Of a DNA stretch of 64,000 nucleotides, positions 6,181-58,268 are shown piece after piece (position 1 is the first letter of the stretch; each line of letters begins with the position of its first letter). Source of the DNA: a virus; IMG/VR virus record IMGVR_UViG_3300021425_000031, positions 1-64,000 of that record; one strand, written 5' to 3'. The notes beneath the pieces were generated by a model. It was not told where the DNA came from and searched no databases. It saw only the letters and a list, made by a program, of their open reading frames with translations. Both the position numbers and the translations under genes were made by a program.

Positions 6181-8136
6181 ATGCCTTTCACTAAATTTAC
6201 AAATCTAGATTTTGATCAAATAAAAACCTCAATCAAAGATTATCTCCGTGCCAACTCATCATTCACGGACTTTGATTTTGAGGGTTCTAATTTTTCTATA
6301 TTAATTGATACTTTAGCGTATAACACGTATATCACAGCTTTTAACTCAAATATGGTCATAAATGAGTCTTTTTTAGACTCAGCAACCGTTAGAGAAAACG
6401 TAGTTTCTCTTGCAAGAAACATCGGTTATGTACCATATTCCAGAAACGCTGCAAGTGCTACAATATCATTTACTGTAAATGTACCTCCAAGCAGTTTTTT
6501 AAGCGATAATACGCCAGTTTATACACCAACAGTAACTCTACAAGCAGGACTTGTCTGCACTGGTTCGGTAAGAGGAACATCTTATGTATTTTCTACTCCA
6601 GAAAATATTACAGTTCCAGTTATAAATGGTGTGGCAACATTTAGCAATATTATAATCAAAGAAGGAACTTTTCTTACCAAAAAGTTTACTGTTAATGCAT
6701 CTTTAGATCAAAAATTTATACTTGATAACTCCTTTATTGATACTTCCACAATTAGAGTCTACGTAAAAGGTTCTAGTGATAGTGGATTGGGAATAAAATA
6801 TTCTTTGGCAGACAATATTTTTAATGTAAATTCAAATTCTCAAATCTTTTTAATTCAGGAAGTACAAGACGAAAAATATCAACTTCTTTTTGGTGATGGA
6901 TTCTTTGGACAAAAACCAGAAAATGGGGCAATAATTACTAGTAACTACATCATTACAAGTGGAAAAGATGGTAATGGTGTAGAAACATTCTCTTTTGCAG
7001 GTTCTTTAAGAGATGCCGACGATGGTAACGTAATACCGCAGAATACAATTACAGTTATTACGAATCAAAGGTCACAAAATGGATCTGACATTGAAACCAT
7101 AGACTCTATTCGTTATTTTGCTCCTCGACTATATGCATCTCAATATAGAGCAGTAACTGCAAGTGACTATGAAACTATCATTAAGTCCAAGATATATGGT
7201 AATGCGGAGTCAATTTCTGTGATTGGTGGAGAAGAGTTAACACCACCACAGTTTGGAACAGTCTTAATCAGCATAAAACCAAAAAATGGTACATTTGTTT
7301 CGGATTTTGATAAAGAAAATATACTTGCAAAACTAAGGCAGTATAGTGTTTCTGGAATTAATCCTAAAATAATCGACCTTAAGATTCTTTATGTTGAGAT
7401 TGAGTCATACATTTACTATAATCAAAACCAGGTTGCATCTGCTTCCGACCTAAAAACTAGGGTAAATAACTCTCTTACGAAGTATTCAGAGTCTGTAGAT
7501 TTAAATAAATTTGGTGGAAGATTTAAATATAGTAAACTTTTACAAGTTATAGACAATACTGATAGTGCCATTACTTCAAATATAACAAGAGTTAGAATAA
7601 GAAGAGATTTTAAGGCTCTTGTAAATCAGCAGGCACAATATGAGATATGTTTTGGAAATCAATTTCATGCAAATCAATATGGATACAATATTAAATCGAC
7701 TGGATTTAAGATTTTAAACGAACCTGACACTGTTTATTTTAGCGACGTTCCTAATTCTGATGGCAAAACTGGCGTAATTGCTATCGTAAAACCTACCACA
7801 GAAACTAGTGTAGAAGAACAGGCAAATCTTTCTCTACAACCATATGTTGTTGTGCAGTCTGCTGGAGTTGTTAATTATGAAACTGGTGAAATAACTATCA
7901 ATACAATTACATTAACATCAACCGAAAGAGATAATGATATTATTGAAATACAAGCATACCCCGAATCAAATGATGTTGTTGGTCTGAAAGATCTTTATGT
8001 TTCTTTTGACATTTCAAAAAGTCAAATAAATATGGTAAAGGATACTATTGCATCTGGTGAGGATATTTCTGGTGTTGTCTTCACAAAAAATTCTTATCGC
8101 TCAAGTTATTCAAATGGAAGTTTAACGAGGTCATAA
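6181..8136 (+). CDS. gp6: Baseplate wedge subunit gp6
   Basis: 651 residues (T4 gp6 is 660), a baseplate J-like protein forming the ring that holds the wedges together. The N-terminus (FTKFTNLDFDQIKTSIKDYL, then GSNFSILIDTLAYNTYITAF and VRENVVSLARNIGYVPYS) is the strongly conserved part of the family. The middle carries RAVTASDYETII and YGNAESISVIGGE, typical of gpJ-like folds. It begins one base after gp25's stop and ends one base before the next ORF, so translation is probably coupled. Confidence 0.93.
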   Translation: MPFTKFTNLDFDQIKTSIKDYLRANSSFTDFDFEGSNFSILIDTLAYNTYITAFNSNMVINESFLDSATVRENVVSLARNIGYVPYSRNAASATISFTVNVPPSSFLSDNTPVYTPTVTLQAGLVCTGSVRGTSYVFSTPENITVPVINGVATFSNIIIKEGTFLTKKFTVNASLDQKFILDNSFIDTSTIRVYVKGSSDSGLGIKYSLADNIFNVNSNSQIFLIQEVQDEKYQLLFGDGFFGQKPENGAIITSNYIITSGKDGNGVETFSFAGSLRDADDGNVIPQNTITVITNQRSQNGSDIETIDSIRYFAPRLYASQYRAVTASDYETIIKSKIYGNAESISVIGGEELTPPQFGTVLISIKPKNGTFVSDFDKENILAKLRQYSVSGINPKIIDLKILYVEIESYIYYNQNQVASASDLKTRVNNSLTKYSESVDLNKFGGRFKYSKLLQVIDNTDSAITSNITRVRIRRDFKALVNQQAQYEICFGNQFHANQYGYNIKSTGFKILNEPDTVYFSDVPNSDGKTGVIAIVKPTTETSVEEQANLSLQPYVVVQSAGVVNYETGEITINTITLTSTERDNDIIEIQAYPESNDVVGLKDLYVSFDISKSQINMVKDTIASGEDISGVVFTKNSYRSSYSNGSLTRS

Positions 8137-32003: not shown

Positions 32004-32441
32004 ATGTCCAGCAATTATAATAACTTAGATTCTACTTTTAATATTGAGAGTAATATTGTTGAGGTTGAAAAAGTAAAAGAAAATTTAAATATTGAATTAT
32101 TAAAAGGAGAAGAGATTAAAAAAGATTATGAGTACACTAGAGCAAATCTTTATTCATTGATTGAAAAAGGTCAAGAAGCAATTGATGGGATTATGGAACT
32201 TGCGGGAGAAGGTAATAGCCCAAGAGCTTATGAAGTTGCTGGACAATTAATTAAAAGTGTTGGAGATGTAACTGATAAACTCATAGATCTTCAGAAAAAA
32301 TTAAAGGATATTGAGGATGAGACAGTAAAGACTACCAATAATGTTACAAATAATGCAGTATTTGTAGGATCCACTTCGGAGTTATCAAAATTACTCAAAC
32401 AAGGATTCCTAAATAATAACGAGTCAGATCTTGCTAGTTGA
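32004..32441 (+). CDS. gp16: Small terminase subunit gp16
   Basis: 145 residues (T4 164). Predominantly helical, with the coiled-coil core typical of the small terminase ring (IKSVGDVTDKLIDLQKKLKD) and an upstream helix (RANLYSLIEKGQEAIDGIME). It recognises and loads DNA for gp17. The position before a structural gene and gp17 fits cyanophage order. The TGA overlaps the next ATG (TGATG). Confidence 0.88.
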   Translation: MSSNYNNLDSTFNIESNIVEVEKVKENLNIELLKGEEIKKDYEYTRANLYSLIEKGQEAIDGIMELAGEGNSPRAYEVAGQLIKSVGDVTDKLIDLQKKLKDIEDETVKTTNNVTNNAVFVGSTSELSKLLKQGFLNNNESDLAS

Positions 32442-33904
32442 TGAAAAAGTCCTGTAAAAAAGGATATTATTATTGTTACACTGATAAAAAATGTAAAAAA
32501 ATACCCAAAGGGTGGCATGTTATGCGCTCTGGATATTTAGTAAAAGATGATAATTATCATGATAAAAATGAAACTAAAACTCATAATGATGCAAATTTGA
32601 ATGGAGATTCTAGCAGTGATAGTGGATCCATGGACGAAACTTGGTCTCAAAAATATAAAAAGTCAATCGACTGTGATAATCCAAAAGGTTTTTCGCAACT
32701 TGCTCATTGTCAGGGGCGCAAAAAGAAACTTGATGAAGAGGGATTGCGTAAGTGGTTCCAAAGTAAATCAAAAGATAAAAAACCTGGTTGGGTTGATGTT
32801 GTAGATGGGGATGCATGTGCTAGAGAAGAGGGGGAAACCGCTACTCCTAAATGCGTATCATCTGAAAAGCGTGCTTCAATGAGTAAAGCAGAAAGACTCG
32901 CTTCTCAGGCAAGAAAGCGCCGCAATGATCCAAATCAACCTAAAAAATCAGGTGCTGCTAAACCAACTTATGTAAAAACAGATTATACATTGGAAGGGGA
33001 CATGAATCTTCAAGAAGTAAAAGACAAACCTGGAAAAGGTAGTGGAACAAAAGATACTTGTTATCATAAGGTTAAGTCAAGATATAAAGTTTGGCCTAGT
33101 GCTTACGCTTCTGGAGCACTTGTAAAGTGTCGCAAAATTGGTGCTTCTAATTGGGGAGAATCTACAGAAATGATAAGATATTGTCCAAAATGTAGAAAGG
33201 AAGAAACACGTAAAGAATGCAAATATGGAGAAAAGTTTTGGGATATGTATTCTATGCCAATTAAAATAAAAGATTATACTCCCAATACTCCACATCCAGG
33301 TAACATGCCAGAATCAAAAGATCACGAATATTCTATGGCAAGGTCTGAAATTTCTACGATTATTTCGGCAGCAAAAAGACTTCGTAAAAAAATGAAGGGT
33401 GAGGGGAATATTAAGGCATGGGTTCAATCCAAAATTACAAAAGCAGCAGATTATTTAGATACTGCTGCGGATTATATTGATAGTGGTGAGATTAGTGAGA
33501 ATTTTATTCCAGGACAACACTTAAATGAAAAGTGTTGGCCTGGATATGAAAAAAAAGGTATGAAAAAAATGTTTGGAAAAAAATACCCGAATTGTGTAAA
33601 AAAAGAAGAATTTTCGAATTGGAGAGCGGACTTTGGGTTGTCTGAAGATTGGCAAAAAGTCAATCGCAAAGATAAAACAGATGGTTTAAGTCAAAAAGCA
33701 GTTAATGCATATCGTCGTGAAAATCCAGGTTCTAAACTTCAAACTGCTGTAACTGAGAAAAAACCAAAAGGGAAAAGAGCAAAAAGAAGAAAAAACTTTT
33801 GCAGTCGTATGTCCGGAATGAAAAAAAGATTGACTTCAGAAAAAACTGCAAGAGATCCAGATTCAAGAATTAACAAAGCCCTTCGTCGTTGGAACTGTAA
33901 TTAA
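32441..33904 (+). CDS. Mosaic multi-module protein (DUF5872/DUF6321-type)
   Basis: 487 residues from the ATG at 32441 (a TTG three bases earlier is unnecessary). It reads as a chain of small modules: Cys-rich head (1-34, CKKGYYYCYTDKKCKKIPKG); DETWSQKYKKSIDC (65-100); a DUF5872-like block (102-175, GLRKWFQSKSKDKKPGWVDV, PKCVSSEKRASMSKAERLAS); a CYHKVKSRYKVW...SGALVKCRK block (205-239); a CPKC segment (248-251) with C260; a helical region (298-349); CWPGYEKKGMKKMFGKKYPN (365-384); and a basic Cys-containing end (404-487). Very basic overall. DUF names are from memory. It probably binds DNA or is packaged or attached to the head. Confidence 0.65.
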   Translation: MKKSCKKGYYYCYTDKKCKKIPKGWHVMRSGYLVKDDNYHDKNETKTHNDANLNGDSSSDSGSMDETWSQKYKKSIDCDNPKGFSQLAHCQGRKKKLDEEGLRKWFQSKSKDKKPGWVDVVDGDACAREEGETATPKCVSSEKRASMSKAERLASQARKRRNDPNQPKKSGAAKPTYVKTDYTLEGDMNLQEVKDKPGKGSGTKDTCYHKVKSRYKVWPSAYASGALVKCRKIGASNWGESTEMIRYCPKCRKEETRKECKYGEKFWDMYSMPIKIKDYTPNTPHPGNMPESKDHEYSMARSEISTIISAAKRLRKKMKGEGNIKAWVQSKITKAADYLDTAADYIDSGEISENFIPGQHLNEKCWPGYEKKGMKKMFGKKYPNCVKKEEFSNWRADFGLSEDWQKVNRKDKTDGLSQKAVNAYRRENPGSKLQTAVTEKKPKGKRAKRRKNFCSRMSGMKKRLTSEKTARDPDSRINKALRRWNCN

Positions 33905-33905
33905 A

Positions 33906-34214
33906 ATGAAAAGTTTTAAGCAATTTATTTCAGAAAGCATTACTATCAACGGTGATTTCAATGGAACCTTAAATGTAGGTTCTTCTCAACCAGAGCAAGC
34001 AACTGAATCATTTTTTGCAGATATTGTTTGGGAAGGTAAATTATATCGCCTTGAAGTTGAGGGTAATATTATGGATAAGAATTCTCTTGCGGAGCAACTT
34101 CAGGCAGAATATCCTGGAGCAATAGTGCATAATATCTATCCAATGACATCAAATTCAGTAACAGTTAAAAACGCACAAAGATACAGACCAGAAAGATTAT
34201 CGTGGAGTGATTGA
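33906..34214 (+). CDS. Probable head-packaged protein with capsid-targeting-like N-terminus
   Basis: 102 residues. The N-terminus MKSFKQFISESI closely resembles the capsid-targeting sequence of T4 internal proteins (MKTYQEFIAE), cleaved after the Glu by the prohead protease; ISE here fits the (L/I)-x-E rule. The remainder is a beta-rich domain (NGDFNGTLNVG, FFADIVWEGKLYRLEVEGNI) with a C-terminal part naming a short motif RYRPERLSW. It is placed among head and packaging genes, one base after the mosaic gene. The packaging role is inference. Confidence 0.6.
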   Translation: MKSFKQFISESITINGDFNGTLNVGSSQPEQATESFFADIVWEGKLYRLEVEGNIMDKNSLAEQLQAEYPGAIVHNIYPMTSNSVTVKNAQRYRPERLSWSD

Positions 34215-35536: not shown

Positions 35537-37234
35537 ATGAGTGATAATGTTTATTTGGGAAATCCAAACCTGAAAAAGGCTAATACTCAGATTCAGTTTA
35601 CTGAAGAACAAATCATTGAGTTCTTAAAGTGTAAAGAAGACCCTGTTTATTTTACTAGAAACTATATTAAGATTGTTTCTCTTGATCATGGTCTTGTGCC
35701 CTTTAAAATGTATCCTTTCCAAGAAAAGCTAATTCAAAATTTCCATGATAATAGGTTTAATATCTGTAAGATGCCACGTCAGACTGGTAAGTCTACTACT
35801 TGTGTATCATATCTTCTACATTACGCTGTTTTTAACGATAATGTTAATATCGCAATCTTAGCAAACAAGGCCTCAACTGCAAGAGATCTTCTTGGTAGAT
35901 TACAACTTGCTTACGAAAATCTACCAAGGTGGATGCAGCAAGGTATTGTATCCTGGAACAAAGGTAGTTTAGAATTAGAGAATGGGTCTAAGATTTCATC
36001 CAACTCTACCTCATCATCTGCAGTTCGAGGTGGATCATATAATGTGATTTTCTTGGACGAATTTGCATTTATTCCAAATCATATTGCTGATGATTTCTTT
36101 GCATCAGTATATCCAACTATTTCTTCTGGACAAAGCACAAAAGTTATTATAGTTTCAACACCACGCGGTATGAATCACTTCTACCGCATGTGGCATGATG
36201 CTGAAAGAGGTAAGAATGAGTATGTGCCCACTGATGTTCATTGGTCTGAAGTTCCTGGAAGAGATGATGCTTGGAAAGAGCAAACAATTGCCAACACTTC
36301 AGAGCAGCAATTCAAAGTTGAATTTGAATGCGAATTCTTAGGATCTGTTAATACTCTTATCAATCCAGCAAAACTTAGAAATCTTGTATATGAAGATCCT
36401 ATAAAAAGAAATGCTGGATTGGACATATATCAAAATCCAAAAAAAGAGAATAATTATCTAATCACAGTCGATGTTGCTCGTGGAATGGGAAATGATTACT
36501 CCGCATTTATTGTTTTTGATATTACAGAGTTTCCATATAAGGTAGTAGCAAAGTATAGGAATAATGAAATTAAACCGATGCTATTTCCAAGTATTATTCA
36601 CGAAGTGGCAAAAGGATATAATGATGCTTGGTTGTTGGTTGAAGTTAATGATATTGGAGACCAAGTAGCAAACATTTTACACTTTGATTTGGAATATGAC
36701 AATGTACTTATGTGCGCAATGAGAGGTCGTGCGGGTCAAATTGTTGGATCTGGATTTAGTGGAAAAAAATCGCAGTTGGGTGTGAGAATGACTGCTGCTG
36801 TGAAAAAGTTAGGATGCTCTAACTTAAAGACTTTATTAGAAGATGATAAACTTCTTACTGTAGATTATGATATCATTTCAGAACTAACCACATTCGCACA
36901 GAGACACAACTCCTTTGAGGCAGAAGAGGGTTGTAATGATGATTTGGCAATGTGCCTTGTAATCTTCTCATGGTTGGTAGCACAGGACTATTTCAAAGAG
37001 ATGACGGATAATGATGTCCGTAAAAGAATTTATGAGGAGCAAAAAAATCAAATAGAGCAGGATATGGCACCATTCGGATTTATTTCTGATGGACTAGAAG
37101 ATATGGAAGTGTTTGTAGAAAAAGAAACAGGTGATAAATGGATGTTGGCATCTTCACAAGACAAAAATAGTTCTCTAGAAGTCTGGAATTTGGACGAATA
37201 TGGTGACAGATCTTATATGTGGGACTATAGATAG
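35537..37234 (+). CDS. gp17: Large terminase subunit gp17
   Basis: 565 residues (T4 610). ATPase: Walker A MPRQTGKST (79-87), Walker B VIFLDEF (170-176; D174, E175 catalytic) and the coupling-motif-like STPRGMNHFY (207-216). RNase-H-like nuclease: ITVDVARGMGNDYSAF (309-324), whose Asp312 is the expected first metal ligand, with later acidic residues near EVNDIGD and EEGCNDDLAM. It pumps DNA through the gp20 portal and cuts concatemers. It is followed by a late promoter for gp18. Confidence 0.96.
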   Translation: MSDNVYLGNPNLKKANTQIQFTEEQIIEFLKCKEDPVYFTRNYIKIVSLDHGLVPFKMYPFQEKLIQNFHDNRFNICKMPRQTGKSTTCVSYLLHYAVFNDNVNIAILANKASTARDLLGRLQLAYENLPRWMQQGIVSWNKGSLELENGSKISSNSTSSSAVRGGSYNVIFLDEFAFIPNHIADDFFASVYPTISSGQSTKVIIVSTPRGMNHFYRMWHDAERGKNEYVPTDVHWSEVPGRDDAWKEQTIANTSEQQFKVEFECEFLGSVNTLINPAKLRNLVYEDPIKRNAGLDIYQNPKKENNYLITVDVARGMGNDYSAFIVFDITEFPYKVVAKYRNNEIKPMLFPSIIHEVAKGYNDAWLLVEVNDIGDQVANILHFDLEYDNVLMCAMRGRAGQIVGSGFSGKKSQLGVRMTAAVKKLGCSNLKTLLEDDKLLTVDYDIISELTTFAQRHNSFEAEEGCNDDLAMCLVIFSWLVAQDYFKEMTDNDVRKRIYEEQKNQIEQDMAPFGFISDGLEDMEVFVEKETGDKWMLASSQDKNSSLEVWNLDEYGDRSYMWDYR

Positions 37235-42779: not shown

Positions 42780-43430
42780 ATGAAACTTATTACAGAAGAA
42801 GTACAAAAAGTAGAATTTATTACCGAAGGTAAGGGTTCTTCACAAAAATATTACATTAAAGGAATTTTCCTTCAAGCTGAACAAGTTAATAGAAATGGAA
42901 GGATGTATCCTCTTTCAATTATGGAGAGAGAGGTAAAAAGATATGATACTAATTTCATTCAAAGAGGTCGTGCTCTTGGAGAATTAGGTCATCCAGAAGG
43001 ACCTACAGTAAACCTTGATAGAGTTTCGCATAAAATTTGCGAACTTTATAGAGATGGAAACAATTTTGTTGGCAAAGCACAAATCTTAGATACTCCCATG
43101 GGAAAAATTGCATCTTCTTTAATTAAAGAAGGTGTTTGTCTTGGCGTATCTTCTAGAGGAGTCGGATCATTAAAAGTAACTAATGAAGGTCATAAAATTG
43201 TTGGTGAAGATTTTATGTTAGCAACCGCAGCAGATATTGTTGCAGATCCATCTGCACCTGACGCCTTTGTTCAAGGAATTATGGAAGGTAAAGAATGGAT
43301 TTGGGATGGTGGCATTCTTCGTGAAAAATTCTTAGAAAAGACACAAAAAACAATAAATACATTAGTTGATAGAAAAATACTTGAAAATTATAAATTAGAT
43401 TTGTTCAATGAATTTTTGTCAAATCTTTAA
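42780..43430 (+). CDS. gp21: Prohead core protease gp21
   Basis: 216 residues (T4 gp21 212), a herpesvirus-type serine protease that trims scaffold and capsid proteins after (L/I)-x-E. Visible motifs: AEQVNRNGRMYPLSIMEREV (33-52), GELGHPEG with H71, RVSHKICELY (H84) and GVSSRGVGS with S124/S125. H71 or H84 and S124/S125 are the likely catalytic residues by family position. It has LITE and FITE near its own N-terminus, consistent with self-processing. Confidence 0.92.
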   Translation: MKLITEEVQKVEFITEGKGSSQKYYIKGIFLQAEQVNRNGRMYPLSIMEREVKRYDTNFIQRGRALGELGHPEGPTVNLDRVSHKICELYRDGNNFVGKAQILDTPMGKIASSLIKEGVCLGVSSRGVGSLKVTNEGHKIVGEDFMLATAADIVADPSAPDAFVQGIMEGKEWIWDGGILREKFLEKTQKTINTLVDRKILENYKLDLFNEFLSNL

Positions 43431-43470: not shown

Positions 43471-44601
43471 ATGTCCGTTGGTAGAAATTTACAAGAAATG
43501 GAAAACGTAGTAACCAAAGGGGCTGCACCTGCCGAACCAATGAGCACTATTGCACAGAATGCTTCAGGAGTTATGATTCCTGGGCAAACTGGAAGTTGGG
43601 AAGATTTAGGCGGTCCTACCCCAGATAATTATCGTCCAGATGACGATTCCGCATCTCTTAAAACTCCTGGATCAACTCTTGCCCAGGTTAAAAATGTGGT
43701 TAATGCTAAAGCATCTCCCGCAGATCCTATGCCATCTATGGCAAAAGAGGAAGTTGAAGAAGATGAAGATCTTGTTGATGAAGAAGAAATCGACGGAGAT
43801 GAAGTTGTAGAAGAAGAATCTGAAAAAGAATCTGAAGAAGAATTTGAAGAAGATACTGAAGAAGAATTTGACATTGAAGAAGATGTCAATGCTCTTTTAG
43901 CAGGTGAAGAATTATCTGAAGAGTTTCAAGAAAAGGCACGTACTATTTTTGAAGCAGCAATTCGCTCTAAAGTTTCAGAAATTAAAGAAGAACTTGAAGC
44001 GACATATGAAAATGCACTTATTGAAGAGGTTAATTTTATCAAACAAGAACTTACTGAGAGAGTAGATTCATATCTTGAGTATGTTGCTGATGAGTGGATT
44101 CAAGAAAATGCACTCGCAGTTGAGCACGGTCTTAAGACTGAAATGACTGAATCATTCCTTGCTGGAATGAAGAATCTTTTTGAAGATCATTATGTAGCAA
44201 TCCCTGAAGATAGATATGATGTAATCGAGAGTATGGTAGATAAACTTGATGAAATGGAAGAAAAACTCAACGAGCAAATTGAAAAAAATATTGCTCTAAA
44301 TCAAAGATTAGCAGAGTCGGTTGCTGATGTAATTTTTGCAGATGTCGCTGAGGGTCTTGCACTTTCTCAGAAAGACAAACTCGCTTCTCTTGCTGAAAAT
44401 GTTGAGTTTGATAGTGAAGAGAGCTATCGTGAGAAACTAGTAACATTGAGGGAATCATATTTCCCAATAAACACTAGTGCTCCAAGAGATGTAACTGAAA
44501 ATTTATCAGAGGAAGTTTCATATGATCAAACCGAAACTACTTCGGTTTCGCCAATCATGGAAGCATATCTTCAAACACTCAGTAGAGTCTCTAAAAAGTG
44601 A
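43471..44601 (+). CDS. gp22: Prohead scaffold gp22
   Basis: 376 residues (T4 269). A very acidic Glu/Asp block (about 90-135) is followed by helical coiled-coil segments (EKARTIFEAAIRSKVSEIKE, LTERVDSYLEYVADEWIQEN). ELSEEF contains an LSE site for gp21, as expected for a scaffold that is digested and expelled. N-terminal MSVGRNLQEMENVVTKGAAP is repeated in part later (AQVKNVVNAKASPADPMPS), suggesting an internal duplication of a short front motif. Confidence 0.9.
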   Translation: MSVGRNLQEMENVVTKGAAPAEPMSTIAQNASGVMIPGQTGSWEDLGGPTPDNYRPDDDSASLKTPGSTLAQVKNVVNAKASPADPMPSMAKEEVEEDEDLVDEEEIDGDEVVEEESEKESEEEFEEDTEEEFDIEEDVNALLAGEELSEEFQEKARTIFEAAIRSKVSEIKEELEATYENALIEEVNFIKQELTERVDSYLEYVADEWIQENALAVEHGLKTEMTESFLAGMKNLFEDHYVAIPEDRYDVIESMVDKLDEMEEKLNEQIEKNIALNQRLAESVADVIFADVAEGLALSQKDKLASLAENVEFDSEESYREKLVTLRESYFPINTSAPRDVTENLSEEVSYDQTETTSVSPIMEAYLQTLSRVSKK

Positions 44602-44651: not shown

Positions 44652-46067
44652 ATGCAGATGTACAACACCGAGTACCTGCAGGAGAAGTGGGCACCGATCC
44701 TTGATTATCAAGGAATGGATCAAATCAAAGATTCACATCGTAGAGCGGTAACCGCAATCCTGCTAGAAAATCAAGAGAGAGAACTTCGTGAAGAGCGTTC
44801 TTTCCTTAGCGAAGCTTCCCCAACTAATTCCGCCGGTACTGGTGGTTTTAGTGGTAGTGCAGCAAGTGGAACTGGTTCACCTGTTGCAGGTTTCGATCCC
44901 GTTCTGATCTCACTGATCAGACGTTCGATGCCCAATCTGGTTGCTTATGACCTTTGTGGCGTTCAACCAATGAACGGCCCTACAGGACTTATCTTTGCAA
45001 TGCGTTCACGCTATCAGAATCAAAGTGGTCCCGAAACATTCTACAATGAAGTAGATTCCGCATTCTCTGGACAAAATAATAGTCTCGGATTGAATTCAGG
45101 ATTTACTGATGGAACTGTTGGTCTCGGTACTACCGCTCAAGGAGGTACTAATCCTTCAATTCTTTCGCCATCAGATCAAACTGCTAATGCTGCACCTGGC
45201 GATAATCAGTATAATGCTGGCGGCGGAATGACCACCGGTAATGCTGAAGCACTTGGCGATAGCGACAGCAATTACTTCAACGAGATGGCTTTCTCAATTG
45301 AGAAACTCACCGTTACCGCTAAGTCACGCGCCCTGAAAGCTGAGTACTCACTCGAATTAGCACAAGACCTTAAGGCAATTCACGGTCTGAATGCTGAAGC
45401 TGAACTTGCTAATATTCTTAGCACTGAGATTCTCGCTGAAATCAACAGAGAAATCATTCGTACTATCTACAAAGTTGCTGTTCCTGGTGCTCAGGTTAAC
45501 ACCGCTTCTGCTGGTACTTTCGACCTTGATGTTGATTCAAACGGTCGTTGGTCTGTTGAGAAGTTCAAGGGTCTTATTTTCCAAATCGAGCGCGATGCTA
45601 ACGCTATCGCACAACAAACTCGTAGAGGAAAGGGCAACATGATTATGTGTTCTGCTGATGTTGCTTCAGCACTCACTATGGCAGGTGTTCTTGATTACAC
45701 CCCAGCACTTAACTCTAATCTTAATGTTGATGATACCGGCAATACTTTTGCAGGTGTTCTTCAAGGTAAGTATAGAGTTTACATTGATCCATATTCGGCA
45801 AACGTTGCAGCTAATCAATTCTACGTTGTTGGATATAAGGGTTCTTCACCTTATGATGCTGGACTATTCTATTGCCCATATGTACCTCTTCAGATGGTAC
45901 GTGCTGTTGGTGAGCATACTTTCCAACCAAAAATTGGATTTAAGACTCGTTATGGAATTGTTGCAAATCCATTCTCTAAGGGTGGTACTCTCCCAACTGC
46001 GCCAGACAACATTGAAACCAACGCTAACGTCTATTACAGAAGAGTTAAGGTTGCAAATCTTATGTGA
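44652..46067 (+). CDS. gp23: Major capsid protein gp23
   Basis: 471 residues. The start NTEYLQEKWAPILDYQGMD is the family hallmark. The pre-sequence ends at FLSE (51-54): LSE fits the gp21 rule, so mature capsid protein would begin ASPTNS at residue 55 (T4 is cut after E65). HK97 fold parts follow: LIRRSMPNLVAYDLCGVQPM, IFAMRSRYQ, KAEYSLELAQDLKAIHGLNA. Codons are GC-richer than in surrounding genes, as expected for the most abundant protein. It is closed by a strong terminator. Confidence 0.97.
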   Translation: MQMYNTEYLQEKWAPILDYQGMDQIKDSHRRAVTAILLENQERELREERSFLSEASPTNSAGTGGFSGSAASGTGSPVAGFDPVLISLIRRSMPNLVAYDLCGVQPMNGPTGLIFAMRSRYQNQSGPETFYNEVDSAFSGQNNSLGLNSGFTDGTVGLGTTAQGGTNPSILSPSDQTANAAPGDNQYNAGGGMTTGNAEALGDSDSNYFNEMAFSIEKLTVTAKSRALKAEYSLELAQDLKAIHGLNAEAELANILSTEILAEINREIIRTIYKVAVPGAQVNTASAGTFDLDVDSNGRWSVEKFKGLIFQIERDANAIAQQTRRGKGNMIMCSADVASALTMAGVLDYTPALNSNLNVDDTGNTFAGVLQGKYRVYIDPYSANVAANQFYVVGYKGSSPYDAGLFYCPYVPLQMVRAVGEHTFQPKIGFKTRYGIVANPFSKGGTLPTAPDNIETNANVYYRRVKVANLM

Positions 46068-52801: not shown

Positions 52802-52945
52802 ATGCAAGTTCCCAATCGCTATCACCACTCTAAGAAAGAGCAGAAGCGGAAATTGAAACCGCAAGCACTCCGACAAGCAAAGGCACGCCGTCAAACATTT
52901 AAGAAAAAGCACTCCAAACGGAGTGTTTTTTTTATAAATATCTAA
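52802..52945 (+). CDS. Basic small protein whose 3' end contains a terminator
   Basis: 47 residues, strongly basic (HHSKKEQKRKLKPQALRQAK, then RRQTFKKKHSKRSVFFINI). A hairpin with a T-run (52910-52933) lies inside the last codons, which therefore read KHSKRSVFF, and the TAA falls just after a TATAAATA box. The N-terminal part looks like small basic cyanophage peptides; the exact C-terminus is forced by the regulatory DNA. Confidence 0.55.
   Translation: MQVPNRYHHSKKEQKRKLKPQALRQAKARRQTFKKKHSKRSVFFINI
52910..52933 (+). terminator. Terminator within the 52802 gene's end
   Basis: CACTCC (52910-52915), AAAC loop, GGAGTG (52920-52925) and eight T. It should stop the gp47-gp46 transcript; the overlap with coding means most messages for the small gene would lack its stop codon unless the terminator leaks. 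Confidence 0.8.
52933..52940 (+). promoter_or_regulatory. Late promoter TATAAATA
   Basis: Exact late box directly joined to the terminator's T-run and 20 bases before the ATG at 52960. Confidence 0.75.
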
Positions 52946-52959
52946 AAAGTCTTGTAAAA

Positions 52960-53634
52960 ATGAGAAATCAAGAAATCATTGGATTAGTGGAAGCATATTC
53001 TTCGATTTATGCCAATCTTTCCGAATCACATTTCAAAGTTGGTGATGAAGTTGTTTGTAAAAAAAGTGGAATGGAAGGTGAGGTTGTAAAAGTTGATCCT
53101 GAAGAGAAAGGTAAGTATTATACCGTGAAACGTGAAGATGGTAAGATGGTAAAGTATGCTCCCGATGAGTTGAAACTTGATAAGGAAGAAGACGAAGAAG
53201 AGGGTGCGGATAAAGAGGAAGAAACTAAATTTCATTCCGAGCTAGATAAAATGGTTCATAAGACTTTTGGTAAGAGAAAAGAAGAGAAGGGAATGAAAGA
53301 AGAAGTTTCTGAGGATCTTCAACAAAAAGTAGGTAAAGTACTAGACGCTGCTGCTAAGAATCCTGTAGTAAAGGCAATTGGTAAGGTCATTGCTCCTGTT
53401 GGTAAGGGTAGAAAAACTCCAACGGCAACAAGTGGGGGATATCGTCCAGAAGAAGTAGAAGTTGATATTTTTGATGTTATTCTAGAGCACCTAGTCGCAG
53501 AAGGTTATGCTGACACCAATCAGGCAGCACTTGCTATTATGGCAAATATGAGTGAAGAGTGGAAGCAGAGTATTGTTGAAGCATATGGTTCTTTCGGTGC
53601 TAATATGGCTGGCGCAGAACTTCAAAGAAGATAG
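52960..53634 (+). CDS. Head-type protein with KOW-like domain and shared C-terminal motif, amber-ended
   Basis: 224 residues to TAG. NLSE (19-22) is a possible gp21 cleavage site. Residues 25-72 read as a KOW-like barrel (FKVGDEVVCKKSGMEGEVVK), then an acidic linker and, at 171-208, the motif FDVILEHLVAEGYADTN...SEEWKQSIVE shared with the protein at 56153. After the TAG (53632-53634) the frame stays open for 29 more protein-like codons (TEKVRQQEREKIEQEK..., ...SGASSQVKGA) to a TGA at 53722-53724. The repeat TCCACTTTCC follows that TGA as it follows the stop of the paralogue. The gene is probably interrupted by a nonsense change or read through. Late promoter in front. Confidence 0.7.
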   Translation: MRNQEIIGLVEAYSSIYANLSESHFKVGDEVVCKKSGMEGEVVKVDPEEKGKYYTVKREDGKMVKYAPDELKLDKEEDEEEGADKEEETKFHSELDKMVHKTFGKRKEEKGMKEEVSEDLQQKVGKVLDAAAKNPVVKAIGKVIAPVGKGRKTPTATSGGYRPEEVEVDIFDVILEHLVAEGYADTNQAALAIMANMSEEWKQSIVEAYGSFGANMAGAELQRR

Positions 53635-53724
53635 ACTGAAAAAGTCCGTCAGCAAGAAAGAGAAAAAATTGAGCAAGAAAAGAAAGGTGGATCTGGAGCA
53701 TCTTCTCAGGTAAAAGGTGCCTGA
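53635..53724 (+). pseudogene. In-frame 29-codon tail beyond an amber stop
   Basis: Continues the frame of the 52960 gene after TAG. It encodes a charged helix and a Gly/Ser-Ala end, a natural-looking C-terminus. The sense codon most easily giving TAG here is CAG (Gln), one transition away. It could be translated by readthrough, or be a remnant; a sequencing error is also possible. Confidence 0.55.
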
Positions 53725-53725
53725 G

Positions 53726-53743
53726 TCCACTTTCCAAACTGTC
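53726..53743 (+). repeat. Copy 1 of TCCACTTTCCAAACTGTC
   Basis: Identical over 18 bases to 57047-57064. Both copies lie just after a TGA and before a terminator and TATAAT box that precede the VWA and MoxR genes. It may be an upstream promoter element or regulator site. Confidence 0.8.
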
Positions 53744-53748
53744 CACTA

Positions 53749-53780
53749 GGGGGGGTCGCAAGACCTCCTTTTTGTATAAT
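53749..53780 (+). promoter_or_regulatory. Terminator fused to TATAAT promoter for the VWA gene
   Basis: GGGGGTC (53751-53757), GCAA tetraloop, GACCTCC (53762-53768), five T, then TGTATAAT with TATAAT at 53775-53780, 24 bases before the ATG at 53804. Upstream transcription stops where the next begins. Confidence 0.7.
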
Positions 53781-53803
53781 ACGGTCATTCAAACCAAATC
53801 ACT

Positions 53804-55948
53804 ATGACCGTTCGCCACGAAATCAAGTCCCAACTTGCTAAACTTCTTGCCACCGAAGACCTTGTGGTGGAGCATAAGAAAGTAGAGACTGCTTACTTCA
53901 ATGTCCATACTCGTGTGCTGACTCTGCCGATGTGGGAGAAGGCAAGCAGCACCGTCTATGACCTTCTGGTGGGTCACGAGGTCGGTCACGCACTTTACAC
54001 TCCCGATGGGGATTGGTTAAAGGAGCACAAGATTCCACCGCAGTTTGTGAATGTGGTTGAGGATGCTCGCATTGAGAAACTGATGAAGCGTCGTTATGCT
54101 GGTCTCGCCAAGACCTTCTATAATGGTTACAAGGAGTTGTCTGATGAAGACTTTTTCCAACTCGAAGATGAAGATATTACTACCTATAATCTTGCCGATA
54201 AGGTCAATCTATATTACAAGATTGGGAACTTTGTAGATGTTCCTTTTAATGATTTTGATGAGATGCCCATCGTTCGTATGATCGGTGAGTGTGAGACTTT
54301 CTCTGATGTTCTGATTGCCGCAGAATTTCTCTACAAGTTCTGTAAGAAAAAACAGCAAGAAGAAACCAAGACTCCGATGGATGATTTGGAGTCGCAACAG
54401 AGTGGTAGCAATCAACCTGCTTCTGATTTCTCCGATCAACCTGAAGGTGAGAATGAAGGTGAACAGGAGCAACCTAGTGAAACTGAGTCTTATGGTGGCA
54501 CTGCTGAGCAGGAGAAACAACCCACTTCTATGGGTGGTCAAACCAATGAAGAACCCGAAGTGAAAACTATGGAATCGCTTGAGGAAGCACTCAAGGACTT
54601 GGTTGATCACAATGGTATTGAGAATGTTTATTTGGAACTTCCTAAACTTGACCTGAATAAAATTATTGTTCCTAACTCCGAAATCCACGACAAGTGTAAA
54701 GAATACTGGGGTTCTTGGATGGAAGAACAGGAATATACCACCGAAGAAATCTTTGGTGAAGTTGATAAGAAGTTCGTGGAATTTAAGCGTTCTGCACAGA
54801 AAGAAGTCAACTATCTGGTCAAAGAGTTTGAGTGTCGCAAGGCAGCAGACTCCTATGCCCGTGCCACCACTGCCCGCACTGGTGTATTGGACTGCACCAA
54901 ACTTCATACCTACAAGTACAATGAAGACCTCTTTAAGAAGGTCACCACTCTTGCTGATGGTAAGAATCACGGTCTGGTGTTTATCCTTGACTGGTCTGGT
55001 TCTATGGGCGATGTGATGTCTGATACTGTCAAACAACTCTTTAATCTTGTTTGGTTCTGTAAGAAAGTTGCCATTCCTTTTGAGGTTTATGCTTTCACCA
55101 ATGACTATCCTCTGGTGAAATATGATGAAGATAACAAGGCATCTATCCGTGAACTTGCTTATACCAAGAAAGATGGTTTGGTTCAGGTTGGCGAGTGGTT
55201 CTCTCTGATGAATATTCTTACCAGCAAGACTAATGGTAAGACACTGGAAGAACAGATGAAAAACATTTTCCGTCTTGCCACTGCCTTCCGATATAACTGC
55301 TATACCCAATACAACATTCCCCATGGTCTGAGTCTTTCTGGCACCCCTCTGAATGAAACTCTTGTTGCCCTTCATCAAATTCTTCCTCAGTTCCAAAAGG
55401 AGAACAAACTCCAGAAAGTTCAGTGCGTCATTTTGACCGATGGTGAGGCGGCAATGCCCAAGTATCACCATGAAGTTCAGCGTCGTTGGGAAGATGAACC
55501 TTTTATGGGCACCAATTACATTGGACCCAACTCTTTTCTTCGTGACCGTAAGACTGGTATAACCTACTCTCTTGACTGTGAGTGGTATGAGTTTACTGAT
55601 ATTCTCCTCCACAACCTTCGTGACAAGTTTAAGGATATCAACTTCATTGGCATCCGTGTGCTTGAGTCCCGTGATGCTGGTAGTTTTATTCGCCGTTACT
55701 GCGGGTATTATGGACCCGAGTATGAAAAGACTATTGGTATTTGGAGAAAGCAACGGGCATTTACCATTAAGAAGTCTGGGTATCATTCTTACTTCGGTCT
55801 TTCTGCTAATGCTCTGGCACAAGATGCTGACTTTGAGGTTGCTGAGGATGCCACTAAGACTCAAATCAAAAGTGCTTTTGCCAAGAGCCTTAAGTCCAAG
55901 AAGATGAATAAAAAGATTCTTGGAGAGTTTGTAGAACTTGTTGCCTGA
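53804..55948 (+). CDS. VWA-domain metallopeptidase-like protein (CobT-like)
   Basis: 714 residues. N-terminus: a zinc-protease motif LLVGHEVGHALYTP (HEVGH at 58-62) with a second acidic helix VNVVEDARIEKLMK (83-95), as in VWA-associated peptidases. A low-complexity Gln/Glu/Ser linker (about 190-255) leads to a C-terminal von Willebrand A domain with a complete MIDAS start, FILDWSGSMGD (DWSGS from 396), TPLNETL (the MIDAS Thr) and CVILTDGEA. The neighbour at 57138 is a MoxR/CobS AAA+ ATPase, the usual partner of such proteins. Together they may act as a remodelling or proteolytic machine. CobT homology is only to the VWA half, so a cobalamin role is doubtful. Stop overlaps a late box. Confidence 0.8.
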   Translation: MTVRHEIKSQLAKLLATEDLVVEHKKVETAYFNVHTRVLTLPMWEKASSTVYDLLVGHEVGHALYTPDGDWLKEHKIPPQFVNVVEDARIEKLMKRRYAGLAKTFYNGYKELSDEDFFQLEDEDITTYNLADKVNLYYKIGNFVDVPFNDFDEMPIVRMIGECETFSDVLIAAEFLYKFCKKKQQEETKTPMDDLESQQSGSNQPASDFSDQPEGENEGEQEQPSETESYGGTAEQEKQPTSMGGQTNEEPEVKTMESLEEALKDLVDHNGIENVYLELPKLDLNKIIVPNSEIHDKCKEYWGSWMEEQEYTTEEIFGEVDKKFVEFKRSAQKEVNYLVKEFECRKAADSYARATTARTGVLDCTKLHTYKYNEDLFKKVTTLADGKNHGLVFILDWSGSMGDVMSDTVKQLFNLVWFCKKVAIPFEVYAFTNDYPLVKYDEDNKASIRELAYTKKDGLVQVGEWFSLMNILTSKTNGKTLEEQMKNIFRLATAFRYNCYTQYNIPHGLSLSGTPLNETLVALHQILPQFQKENKLQKVQCVILTDGEAAMPKYHHEVQRRWEDEPFMGTNYIGPNSFLRDRKTGITYSLDCEWYEFTDILLHNLRDKFKDINFIGIRVLESRDAGSFIRRYCGYYGPEYEKTIGIWRKQRAFTIKKSGYHSYFGLSANALAQDADFEVAEDATKTQIKSAFAKSLKSKKMNKKILGEFVELVA

Positions 55949-56152: not shown

Positions 56153-57046
56153 ATGAATTCGCATCAAGTAAACGATTTAAAGATTCTTTATCATGCAGTT
56201 TATGATGAAAATCTTAGAGAGCAAGCGGAAGAGTACAATAACACTCTTTTTGATGGGGACATTGTAGAAGTTGCAACAGAATATTTTTACACTTATGGAC
56301 TCAATGAAGATGGTATTGATATTCTGATTGAAAAGGTTGGTCTTGATAATTTTGTAGAATTTGTTTATGGTCTTTCTGAAGATTTAACAGTTCTTACTGA
56401 GGCAAGAGCAGCAAGAAGAAGAAAAGGCGGAGAATCTTATGAAGAGGTAAAAGCAAAAATTGATGCTAAAGAAGCGGCAAAGAAAAAAGCAAAGGAAGAA
56501 GCACGAAAAAGATCTGAAACTGAAAATAAGGAACCAGAATCAAAGGGTGCCGATACCGAAGCAAAAAAAGAGCAACCAAAGAAAAAACCAATTCGTGATG
56601 CAATTGCAAGACAAGTTCTTGCTGGAATGGAGCGTCATCGTAAAGCAATGGAACTTGTTGGAGAAACTGGTAAAACAGTTGCAAAGGCAGCAGCAGTAAC
56701 TCATGAAGCAGGTCGTCGTGCAGGTGAGCACGTTAAAAAGCATGGTTTAAAATCTCTTGCAAATGAAGAGTTTGAAGGTGATATGTTTGATTATATCCTT
56801 GAGCACCTGGTTGCTGAAGGGTATGCTGACACCAATGAGAACGCTTTGAAGATTATGGCAAATATGAGTGAAGAGTGGAGACAGAGTATTGTTGAGCAAC
56901 TTTCTCCAGAACAGGAAGGTCGCAGACGTGAATTGAGTAAGATGATTAACAGAGCTGGAACTCCAAAGGGTATGCCTCTTGATAGTCCCCAACTCAAAGA
57001 TATGCGGGGTGAGTACATTAAACTTCAAAAACTGAAAGGAGTTTGA
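56153..57046 (+). CDS. Head-type protein with shared C-terminal motif, coiled linker
   Basis: 297 residues. The N-terminal domain (LKILYHAVYDENLREQAEEY, VEVATEYFYTYGLNEDGIDI) is followed by GLSE (73-76) and LTE (81-83), possible gp21 sites, then a long charged helix (EEVKAKIDAKEAAKKKAKEE). At 212-249 is the motif FDYILEHLVAEGYADTN...SEEWRQSIVE shared with the protein at 52960. The tail is KMINRAGTPKGMPLDSPQL. Cyanophage proteins of this type are usually annotated as structural or scaffold-like. The TCCACTTTCC repeat begins at the base after its TGA. Confidence 0.7.
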   Translation: MNSHQVNDLKILYHAVYDENLREQAEEYNNTLFDGDIVEVATEYFYTYGLNEDGIDILIEKVGLDNFVEFVYGLSEDLTVLTEARAARRRKGGESYEEVKAKIDAKEAAKKKAKEEARKRSETENKEPESKGADTEAKKEQPKKKPIRDAIARQVLAGMERHRKAMELVGETGKTVAKAAAVTHEAGRRAGEHVKKHGLKSLANEEFEGDMFDYILEHLVAEGYADTNENALKIMANMSEEWRQSIVEQLSPEQEGRRRELSKMINRAGTPKGMPLDSPQLKDMRGEYIKLQKLKGV

Positions 57047-57064
57047 TCCACTTTCCAAACTGTC
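57047..57064 (+). repeat. Copy 2 of TCCACTTTCCAAACTGTC
   Basis: Exact copy of 53726-53743, beginning at the base after the TGA of the 56153 gene and upstream of the terminator-promoter module at 57069-57103. Confidence 0.8.
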
Positions 57065-57068
57065 ACAT

Positions 57069-57103
57069 GGGGCACTTACCTGCCCCTTTTTTGTGGGTAT
57101 AAT
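57069..57103 (+). promoter_or_regulatory. Terminator fused to TATAAT promoter for the MoxR gene
   Basis: GGGGCA/TGCCCC stem (57069-57074, 57081-57086), six T, then GTGGG and TATAAT (57098-57103), 34 bases before the ATG at 57138. Same order as 53749-53780. No clear -35; the hairpin occupies that place. Confidence 0.7.
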
Positions 57104-57137
57104 ATGGGAGTTCAAATGAAACACACCTAACTACATC

Positions 57138-58268
57138 ATGCCTCGTAAAATTTCTGTGACCGACGAACAACTCATCTCCGATCTTAAATCTTTATTTGGT
57201 ACAGAGTTTTCTGCTGGTGATATTCGCGGTTATTGTGCATCTAAGGGCATTTCTTACCCCACCGTAACTAACCGTCTTGAACCTTTTAAGACTGCTCGTG
57301 GTCGTTGGAATCTTGAAGTGACTGAAGAACGTGTCGAAGAGATTGAGCGTTCTTATCAGGCACCTGCTGCTCTCCCTGCTGTGGAACAAAACCTTATTCC
57401 AGAAAAAGATGATACCTTCGTCAAGTTTGGTAATTTTAACGATATTAAGAAAATTATTCAGTCCAATCTATTTTACCCTACGTTCATTACGGGTCTTTCG
57501 GGTAATGGTAAAACGTTCAGTGTGGAGCAAGCGTGTGCTCAACTTAAGCGTGAACTGATTCGTGTAAATATTACTATCGAAACTGATGAAGATGACCTTA
57601 TCGGTGGTTTCCGCCTTGTTGATGGGAACACTGCATGGCATAACGGTCCCGTCATCGAAGCACTGGAGCGAGGAGCAATCCTTCTCCTTGATGAAATCGA
57701 TCTTGCTTCCAATAAGATCCTCTGCCTTCAGTCCATTCTAGAAGGTAAGGGAGTCTTCTTGAAAAAGATTGGTAAGTGGGTAAAACCTACCGCTGGTTTC
57801 AATGTGATTGCTACTGCCAACACCAAGGGTAAGGGTAGTGACGATGGGCGCTTCATCGGCACTAATGTGCTCAATGAGGCATTCCTGGAGCGTTTTCCTG
57901 TGACCTTTGAGCAGTCCTATCCTGCTCCTGCCACCGAACAGAAGATCCTGGAAGGGGTTGCTCTGGATCTTGGGGTGGAAGATCGTGACTTCTGTAAGCG
58001 CCTGGTGGACTGGGGCGATATTATCCGCAAGACCTTCTATGATGGTGGTATTGAGGAAATCATCAGCACCCGTCGTCTTGTTCACATCATCCGTGCCTAC
58101 AGCATCTTCCAAGACAAGGCAAAGGCAATTCAAGTTTGCGTGAATCGATTTGATGACGAAACCAAGCAAGCATTTCTGGAACTTTATGATAAGGTAGATG
58201 CTGATTTCCAAATGCCGTCGCAACCTGAACTGACTGTAGAATACGTTGACTATCCCACTCAAATTTGA
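57138..58268 (+). CDS. cobS: MoxR/CobS-type AAA+ ATPase with N-terminal HTH-like domain
   Basis: 376 residues. Residues 8-60 look like a small winged helix-turn-helix domain (TDEQLISDLKSLFGTEFSAG, then IRGYCASKGISYPTVTNRLE), ahead of the ATPase: Walker A TGLSGNGKT (118-126), Walker B AILLLDEID (180-188), sensor-1 IATANTKGKG (224-233) and the arginine finger in FLERFP (249-254). Phages call this gene cobS after the cobaltochelatase subunit, but the neighbour with a VWA domain and metallopeptidase motif argues for a MoxR-VWA chaperone-like pair rather than cobalt insertion. Its TGA forms the TG of the next promoter box. Confidence 0.85.
   Translation: MPRKISVTDEQLISDLKSLFGTEFSAGDIRGYCASKGISYPTVTNRLEPFKTARGRWNLEVTEERVEEIERSYQAPAALPAVEQNLIPEKDDTFVKFGNFNDIKKIIQSNLFYPTFITGLSGNGKTFSVEQACAQLKRELIRVNITIETDEDDLIGGFRLVDGNTAWHNGPVIEALERGAILLLDEIDLASNKILCLQSILEGKGVFLKKIGKWVKPTAGFNVIATANTKGKGSDDGRFIGTNVLNEAFLERFPVTFEQSYPAPATEQKILEGVALDLGVEDRDFCKRLVDWGDIIRKTFYDGGIEEIISTRRLVHIIRAYSIFQDKAKAIQVCVNRFDDETKQAFLELYDKVDADFQMPSQPELTVEYVDYPTQI

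Follow-up and report, generated by a model that had tools for sequence, protein, structure and literature searches.

A young amber allele in an exchangeable tail cassette of a T4-like cyanophage protein family with predicted prohead protease sites

The amber codon that ends a 224-residue gene of a T4-like cyanophage is a young nonsense allele, and it lies within an exchangeable C-terminal tail. The window, which is the whole stretch of 64,000 nucleotides that was analysed, is part of a virus record of 66,583 bases. Its DNA matches 456 phage records whose names refer to Synechococcus, Prochlorococcus, cyanophage or marine virus, and its genes include gp21, gp22, gp23, a tail tube, a UvsW-type helicase, a late sigma factor, a clamp, a peptidase and a MoxR-type ATPase. 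From this gene content and these matches, the virus is identified as a T4-like cyanophage. Small T4-like cyanophage proteins made of exchangeable parts form a family that includes the product of the amber gene. From the N-terminus onward, these parts are a segment of about 11 residues with a predicted protease site, a first variable slot, a conserved 39-residue motif ending in another predicted site, and a second variable slot occupied by a basic tail. The family was assembled from 174 domain hits, 143 of which were near-complete; dropping 15 without the aligned Trp left 128, and 119 of these are complete ORFs (117 distinct proteins). The window contains two members, and their features are as follows, with a slash marking each predicted cut.

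52960–53634, plus strand: family gene, 224 amino acids, ending in the amber TAG; its motif is matched by PHROG 3708 and PHROG 22522 (unknown function)
52960–52992, plus strand: N-terminal segment MRNQEIIGLVE/, 11 residues; predicted site LVE/A; proposed capsid targeting sequence
53023–53025, plus strand: Glu22 of a second predicted site, LSE/S, with the P3–P1 letters of the gp23 site LSE/A of the window genome
53032–53187, plus strand: predicted small SH3/KOW-like barrel (sub-threshold PF20297, E 0.0055; strands in an AlphaFold2 model of the L004 homologue)
53464–53580, plus strand: conserved 39-residue motif DIFDVILEHLVAEGYADTNQAALAIMANMSEEWKQSIVE, ending in the predicted site IVE/A (Glu207)
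53581–53631, plus strand: part of the tail cassette that is still translated (its first 17 residues), from the ORF translation and allele comparison
53632–53634, plus strand: amber TAG; CAG (Gln) in L004/L181 and L183–L185, GCA (Ala) in L186–L189
53635–53724, plus strand: remaining 29 codons of the tail cassette and the probable ancestral stop TGA (53722–53724), from homologous tails
53726–53785, plus strand: intergenic element with TCCACTTTCCAAACTGTC, a hairpin with a T-run, and TATAAT; 3' breakpoint region of cassette exchange
56153–57046, plus strand: second family member, 297 amino acids; predicted site IVE/Q at Glu248 (56894–56896) and a 49-residue tail
57047–57105, plus strand: second copy of the intergenic element, with a terminator-like hairpin at 57069–57086

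Interleaved with the two family genes are a PHROG 459 protein annotated as a peptidase (53804–55948) and a MoxR/CbbQ-like ATPase (57138–58268), and the same interleaving is present in S-SRM01. Between gp46 and the amber gene, a short frame at 52802–52945 would encode a very basic peptide of about 45 residues, as judged by eye.

Past the TAG, the frame encodes 29 further codons (TEKVRQQEREKIEQEKKGGSGASSQVKGA) before the TGA, and the gene, the amber, the extension and the second stop all lie where the first-pass annotation had placed them. An open frame of 29 codons is by itself unsurprising in DNA of about 37% GC; the extension is taken as real coding sequence because homologues carry the tail. 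When virus contigs were searched with the tail and the best 80 loci kept (the same limit was used for each family search), nine loci aligned along the full 70-residue query with an identity of at least 80%, which makes ten tail-bearing loci with the window. Of these at least ten loci, two carry TAG at the codon (the window and L182), four carry CAG (L181, L183, L184 and L185) and four carry GCA (L186–L189); L183–L185 are similar to one another, as are L186–L189, and the loci within each group are not independent counts. All eight sense-codon loci among the matches listed continue to the same TGA, and none of them stops where the amber lies and lacks the 29 residues. Since eight of the ten tail-bearing loci listed read through to TGA, the TGA is very probably the ancestral end, as had been proposed from the window alone, and the TAG a nonsense allele of a Gln CAG. 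The proposed CAG to TAG change is borne out by L004/L181, which has CAG in a tail otherwise identical to that of the window and differs nowhere between the TAG and the TGA. Among the eight sense-codon loci listed, Gln occupies the position in four and Ala in the other four.

The repeat that had been noted directly after both the stop of the paralogue and the second stop of the amber gene is present at both positions. The 18-mer TCCACTTTCCAAACTGTC occurs exactly twice in the window (53726 and 57047) with up to three mismatches allowed, against a chance expectation of 0.03, and none of 100 shuffles contained two copies. It begins 0 nt after the gene stop at 57046 and 1 nt after the TGA of the amber gene. 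Among the matches listed, the element lies 1–15 nt after the stop in 99 of 119 complete ORFs and was not found in 18; the two outliers are the TAG allele L173 (92 nt) and L128 (75 nt). Hairpins fold in both window copies, although not beyond shuffles (z of -0.8 and -1.7). A scan for sigma-70 promoter and terminator consensus returned a terminator for the 57047 copy only and a promoter at neither; the TATAAT was recognized by eye.

That the tail is an exchangeable cassette, carried also by an unrelated gene, goes beyond the first-pass annotation and follows from its alignments. Compared with its nearest orthologue, L004, the window is 42–44% identical at 53340–53459 and 97–100% identical at 53460–53759, with identity declining through the next gene. 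Compared with L185, identity reaches 90–100% at 53540–53739 only; the L185 gene is a different one, located after nrdB. The window tail sits on this gene, whose body is unrelated, throughout L183–L189 (of these seven, two were read over the whole locus). These two profiles put one breakpoint region in the DNA that encodes the motif and the other in the element that follows the stop. Across the complete ORFs listed there are 61 tail-sharing pairs, 40 of them with non-alignable bodies. Tails also appear in the other slot: the L072 tail is 97.5% identical over 81 residues to the N-terminal slot of L143, and the L022 tail is 65–76% identical to the N-terminal slots of L226, L145, L082, L007 and L013 among the matches listed (self-matches of L234, which has two motif copies, were left out as evidence). 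By these comparisons, tails move between unrelated genes and between the two slots.

The tails are diverse in sequence and uniform in charge. The 119 complete ORFs listed fall into 77 tail clusters, and where the Trp is followed by more than 30 residues, all 102 distinct tails listed are net positive, versus 59 of 107 random body stretches. Twenty-four of the 102 distinct tails listed end in Gly-Val or Gly-Ala at the stop, as at 53716–53724 and 57038–57046, so the 3' exchange border may extend into the last codons. For conserved residues, the frequency of identical codons was 0.76 for the motif and 0.61 for the peptidase, the motif being higher in 44 of 45 loci. A role of the motif DNA as a recombination anchor was considered on this basis and set aside, since at four-fold sites the values were only 0.67 versus 0.59 with codon bias left in.

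Family cassettes also occur in marine cyanophage proteins of T4-GC 1454 / PHROG 764, which are annotated as cytidyltransferase or hypothetical and differ from the family in having no 39-residue motif in the family form. The S-RIM8 protein has two of these cassettes, YDRNR..VPGVGYVSP (by eye) and a C-terminal MYRRAGNLAR..KIVSAI, and the S-SM1 protein has the MYRRAGNLAR..KIVSAI cassette. With its hairpin and promoter-like TATAAT bordering exchanged units, the intergenic element may resemble PeSL elements (PMC4503421). It shares their position at the borders of exchanged modules, since identity to both L004 and L185 drops inside the element or immediately behind it. Unlike the units between PeSL elements, the exchanged unit here is part of a gene, with one border in the intergenic element and the other inside a coding motif.

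A second nonsense case was found in the family. The loci L245 and L114 are 99.9% identical (six differences in 6508 bases), and in L245 a GGA to TGA change falls on the first codon after IVE, with the rest of the tail (55 residues) in frame behind (L245 3820–3997 versus L114 3606–3783). Among the closed-end ORFs of the 128 that were checked for a tail past the stop, one follows directly in frame only in L173 and L245 (matches listed); a third past-stop match, in L022, begins 77 codons on and is probably the next gene's. The tails listed thus hold two stops in about 7170 codons, compared with one clear mid-gene stop (gp46 of L246) in 182,779 listed codons of peptidase, moxR and gp46, a count that omits three moxR matches, two close to the natural C-terminus and one at the gene's start. 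The gp46 of L246 (1769–3481) has two in-frame stops by tblastn, which may reflect gene breakage, an insertion or faulty assembly. The apparent enrichment of tails in nonsense codons, with p = 0.004 when the window is counted and 0.07 when it is not, is only suggestive, given two cases of which one was the starting point. Tail loss by point mutation may recur, through relaxed constraint or through host selection, and two cases do not separate these causes.

Besides nonsense mutation, which accounts best for the data, the first-pass annotation had offered sequencing error and regulated readthrough, and both lost ground, as did recoding; all three are unlikely. A single-base sequencing or assembly error would involve a common change, C to T, in contigs of metagenome origin. 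The same TAG is nevertheless present in a separate contig, IMGVR 3300010297_001648 (handles L003, L173 and L182), which is identical to the window at 6363 of 6385 bases and differs at two sites in its first 6238. The other 20 of the 22 differences cluster near the contig end (L173 6239–6302; window 53977–54040), which looks as if it were derived from another strain. This is a second contig of the window genotype, not a second lineage; the shared TAG makes an error very improbable, and this contig does not establish the age of the allele. A pattern search with N at the amber base likewise returned, besides the window, only L173 (TAG) and L176 (CAG) among the matches listed. Programmed or leaky readthrough, which would yield a short form and one longer by 29 residues, could draw on the intact, unchanged frame behind the stop and on L245, where the tail is also intact behind a stop at its start. 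The frame is intact because the allele is young, with no difference from L004 up to the TGA. In L245 the stop is a different codon at a different position, and its near-identical relative has GGA there. The stop is also not conserved: TAG occurs in two of the ten loci listed, both of the same genotype, and the others have CAG or GCA. In seven other family members that end in TAG, the stop appears to be genuine, and in most of them the intergenic element follows at once; a search of the window for tRNA genes found none. Readthrough is accordingly improbable, if slightly less so than an error. Some gut phages recode TAG as Gln, and Gln is the residue replaced here. TAG, however, is a working stop in the window virus: it ends 8 of the 57 kept ORFs, including one of 565 amino acids ending at 37234, and five of the eight have another in-frame stop within eight codons; read with the standard code, the core genes have their full length. 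The amber gene is the only plus-strand TAG-ended ORF of the window with a long in-frame extension. Recoding is contradicted by this stop usage and was rejected, its probability being negligible.

The borders of the cassettes suggest what the tails may be. The T4 prohead protease gp21 cleaves after Glu in L/I-X-E, and T4 internal proteins have removable targeting segments of 10–19 residues (PMC9026906). Three head genes of the window are relevant.

42780–43430, plus strand: prohead protease of the gp21 type (PF03420, E 4e-40; PHROG 207, E 7.5e-80); proposed cutting enzyme
43471–44601, plus strand: head scaffold gp22 (PF25623, PHROG 237), with a C-terminus of ...SPIME/AYLQTLSRVSKK
44652–46067, plus strand: major capsid protein gp23 (PF07068), with FLSE/A at residue 54 as the site calibration

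By sequence, both family sites fit the T4 rule, and the window encodes a protease of the matching type. Among the complete ORFs listed, 111 of 119 have [LI]xE within the first 24 residues (shuffle mean 44, maximum 61), and [LI]xE/AY occurs in 82 of 119, with the Glu at residue 11 in 77 (shuffle mean 0.4). At the other border, 112 of 119 have [LI]xE no more than nine residues after the motif Trp (shuffle mean 23, maximum 35). The N-terminal site is absent in eight and the C-terminal site in seven of the 119 listed, and some starts are possibly misassigned. Sequence conservation ends right at the Glu of the motif-end site, and the variants ILSE, ILDE and IMIEE shift the site yet keep an [LI]xE. 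In a comparison of 125 ORFs that includes some open at the start (matches listed), no site is left in three of the six with tails of 13 residues or fewer versus 4 of 119 with longer tails (Fisher p = 0.002). The C-terminus of the window gp22, IME/AYLQTL, resembles the LxE/AY of the family N-terminus. By eye, candidate sites were also seen in S-CRM01 g292 (ALDE/AYRNLY and SILE/G; the S-CRM01 motif match is weak, E 0.4) and in ACG-2014f gp263 (QLKE/AYTNVH and EILE/A). An avoidance of internal sites in tails was considered and dropped: the raw counts listed were 16 sites at 7924 tail positions and 372 at 18835 body positions, and after duplicate removal and shuffling they became 13 versus 19.7 expected (p = 0.07).

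In several respects the family resembles IPI, IPII and IPIII of T4, with an N-terminus of about ten residues ending in L/I-X-E, a small basic mature part, and variability between related phages (PMC9026906). The segment of the window gene, ending in LVE with Glu at residue 11, falls within the T4 range of lengths and ends. It differs from the T4 internal proteins in its N-terminus LxE/AY..VY, its 39-residue motif, and a variable basic part that lies behind a second, C-terminal site. Predicted C-terminal processing has a parallel in Alt and gp21 of T4, for which C-terminal cutting by gp21 is on record; in the parts of PMC9026906 drawn on here, those pieces are described as propeptides, not as exchangeable cassettes.

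A T4-type targeting pattern, M..[FLYI]..F[LIFVM].E, was built from T4 sequences, and the N-terminus of the window gene does not fit it. At 33906–34214, a 102-residue protein (PHROG 1742, unknown function) has a start, MKSFKQFISE/S, that resembles a T4-type capsid targeting sequence. At 32438–33904 lies a 488-residue protein with a TTG start and a basic C-terminal DUF6321 domain (PF19846). In S-CREM2, all four ORFs with an ATG-initiated segment of this pattern appear in the virion list given in Table 3 of PMC10665884, and gp14 also fits if the first residue of the annotated CDS is read as Met. In S-CREM2 gp137, which is in that list, the C-terminus is like that of the DUF6321 protein, as judged by eye. 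A blastp search of S-CREM2 for the family gave no match. This suggests that T4 targeting logic works in T4-like cyanophages and does not imply that the family uses it.

The best account combines a nonsense allele, cassette exchange and a capsid-internal, protease-processed protein; taken together it is moderately favoured, with most of the weight on the nonsense part. A Gln CAG would have become TAG in a C-terminal cassette moved between phages by recombination. The N-terminus would target the family protein into the prohead core, and the phage's own gp21-type protease would cut after LVE and IVE. Once freed, the basic tail would remain inside the head alongside the DNA, in the manner of T4 internal proteins, and might pass into the host. 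The amber would shrink the released tail from 47 residues (net charge +3) to 17 (+1), and the tail may have been lost by drift or host selection. The analysis itself shows the states of the allele, the homology of the tails, their exchange and its breakpoints, the conservation of the sites and the presence of the protease gene. The proposed capsid part, which covers capsid location, cleavage, packaging and any effect in the host, stands at about even chances or slightly above, and the earlier label of a structural-type gene is plausible.

The main competitor accepts the nonsense allele and the exchange and dispenses with processing by the prohead protease. The [LI]xE would then be structural, in the motif and in an N-terminal helix, and the basic tails would be disordered ends with an intracellular role such as DNA or RNA binding. 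An AlphaFold2 model of the L004 homologue is poor (pLDDT 65.7, pTM 0.29) and draws the tail and the motif end as one helix; compared with the PDB, it gave weak SH3/KOW-like matches, none at E ≤ 0.001. In such a predicted helix, IxE may be conserved as the helix close of the motif, and a further [LI]xE, ILE176, fits the rule within the motif and would presumably need to stay uncut. The family also gave no blastp match in S-CREM2, whose virion proteins are tabulated. Against these points stand two independent sites, one at each cassette border, the AY that follows LxE in the family and IME in gp22, the loss of the Glu in half of the almost tail-less ORFs listed, and the shifted variants that retain [LI]xE. 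Processing by the prohead protease is preferred, and its absence is the less likely case, though a substantial one. A broader scheme is more doubtful still. Family proteins would be head-targeted polyproteins whose basic cassettes, lying between prohead protease sites, are cut free at head maturation and delivered together with the DNA. Cassettes would be swapped between genes, slots and phages through recombination at two places, the motif DNA and the intergenic element, and a point nonsense would switch a cassette off when the host makes it costly. On this view, both the window amber and the L245 TGA would represent cassettes switched off.

Taken alone, the stop codon is nothing unusual. Its yield is a family of unannotated cyanophage proteins, belonging to PHROGs 3708 and 22522 with no known function, whose parts are bordered by sites that fit the head protease. 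Among the papers listed by the literature searches, none pointed to the family. Head packaging and release by the head protease are proposed from the anatomy of the proteins. The T4 internal protein IPI counters a host restriction enzyme (PMC9026906), and if the family is indeed packaged into heads, its members would be candidates for proteins injected into cyanobacteria, comparable to IPI.
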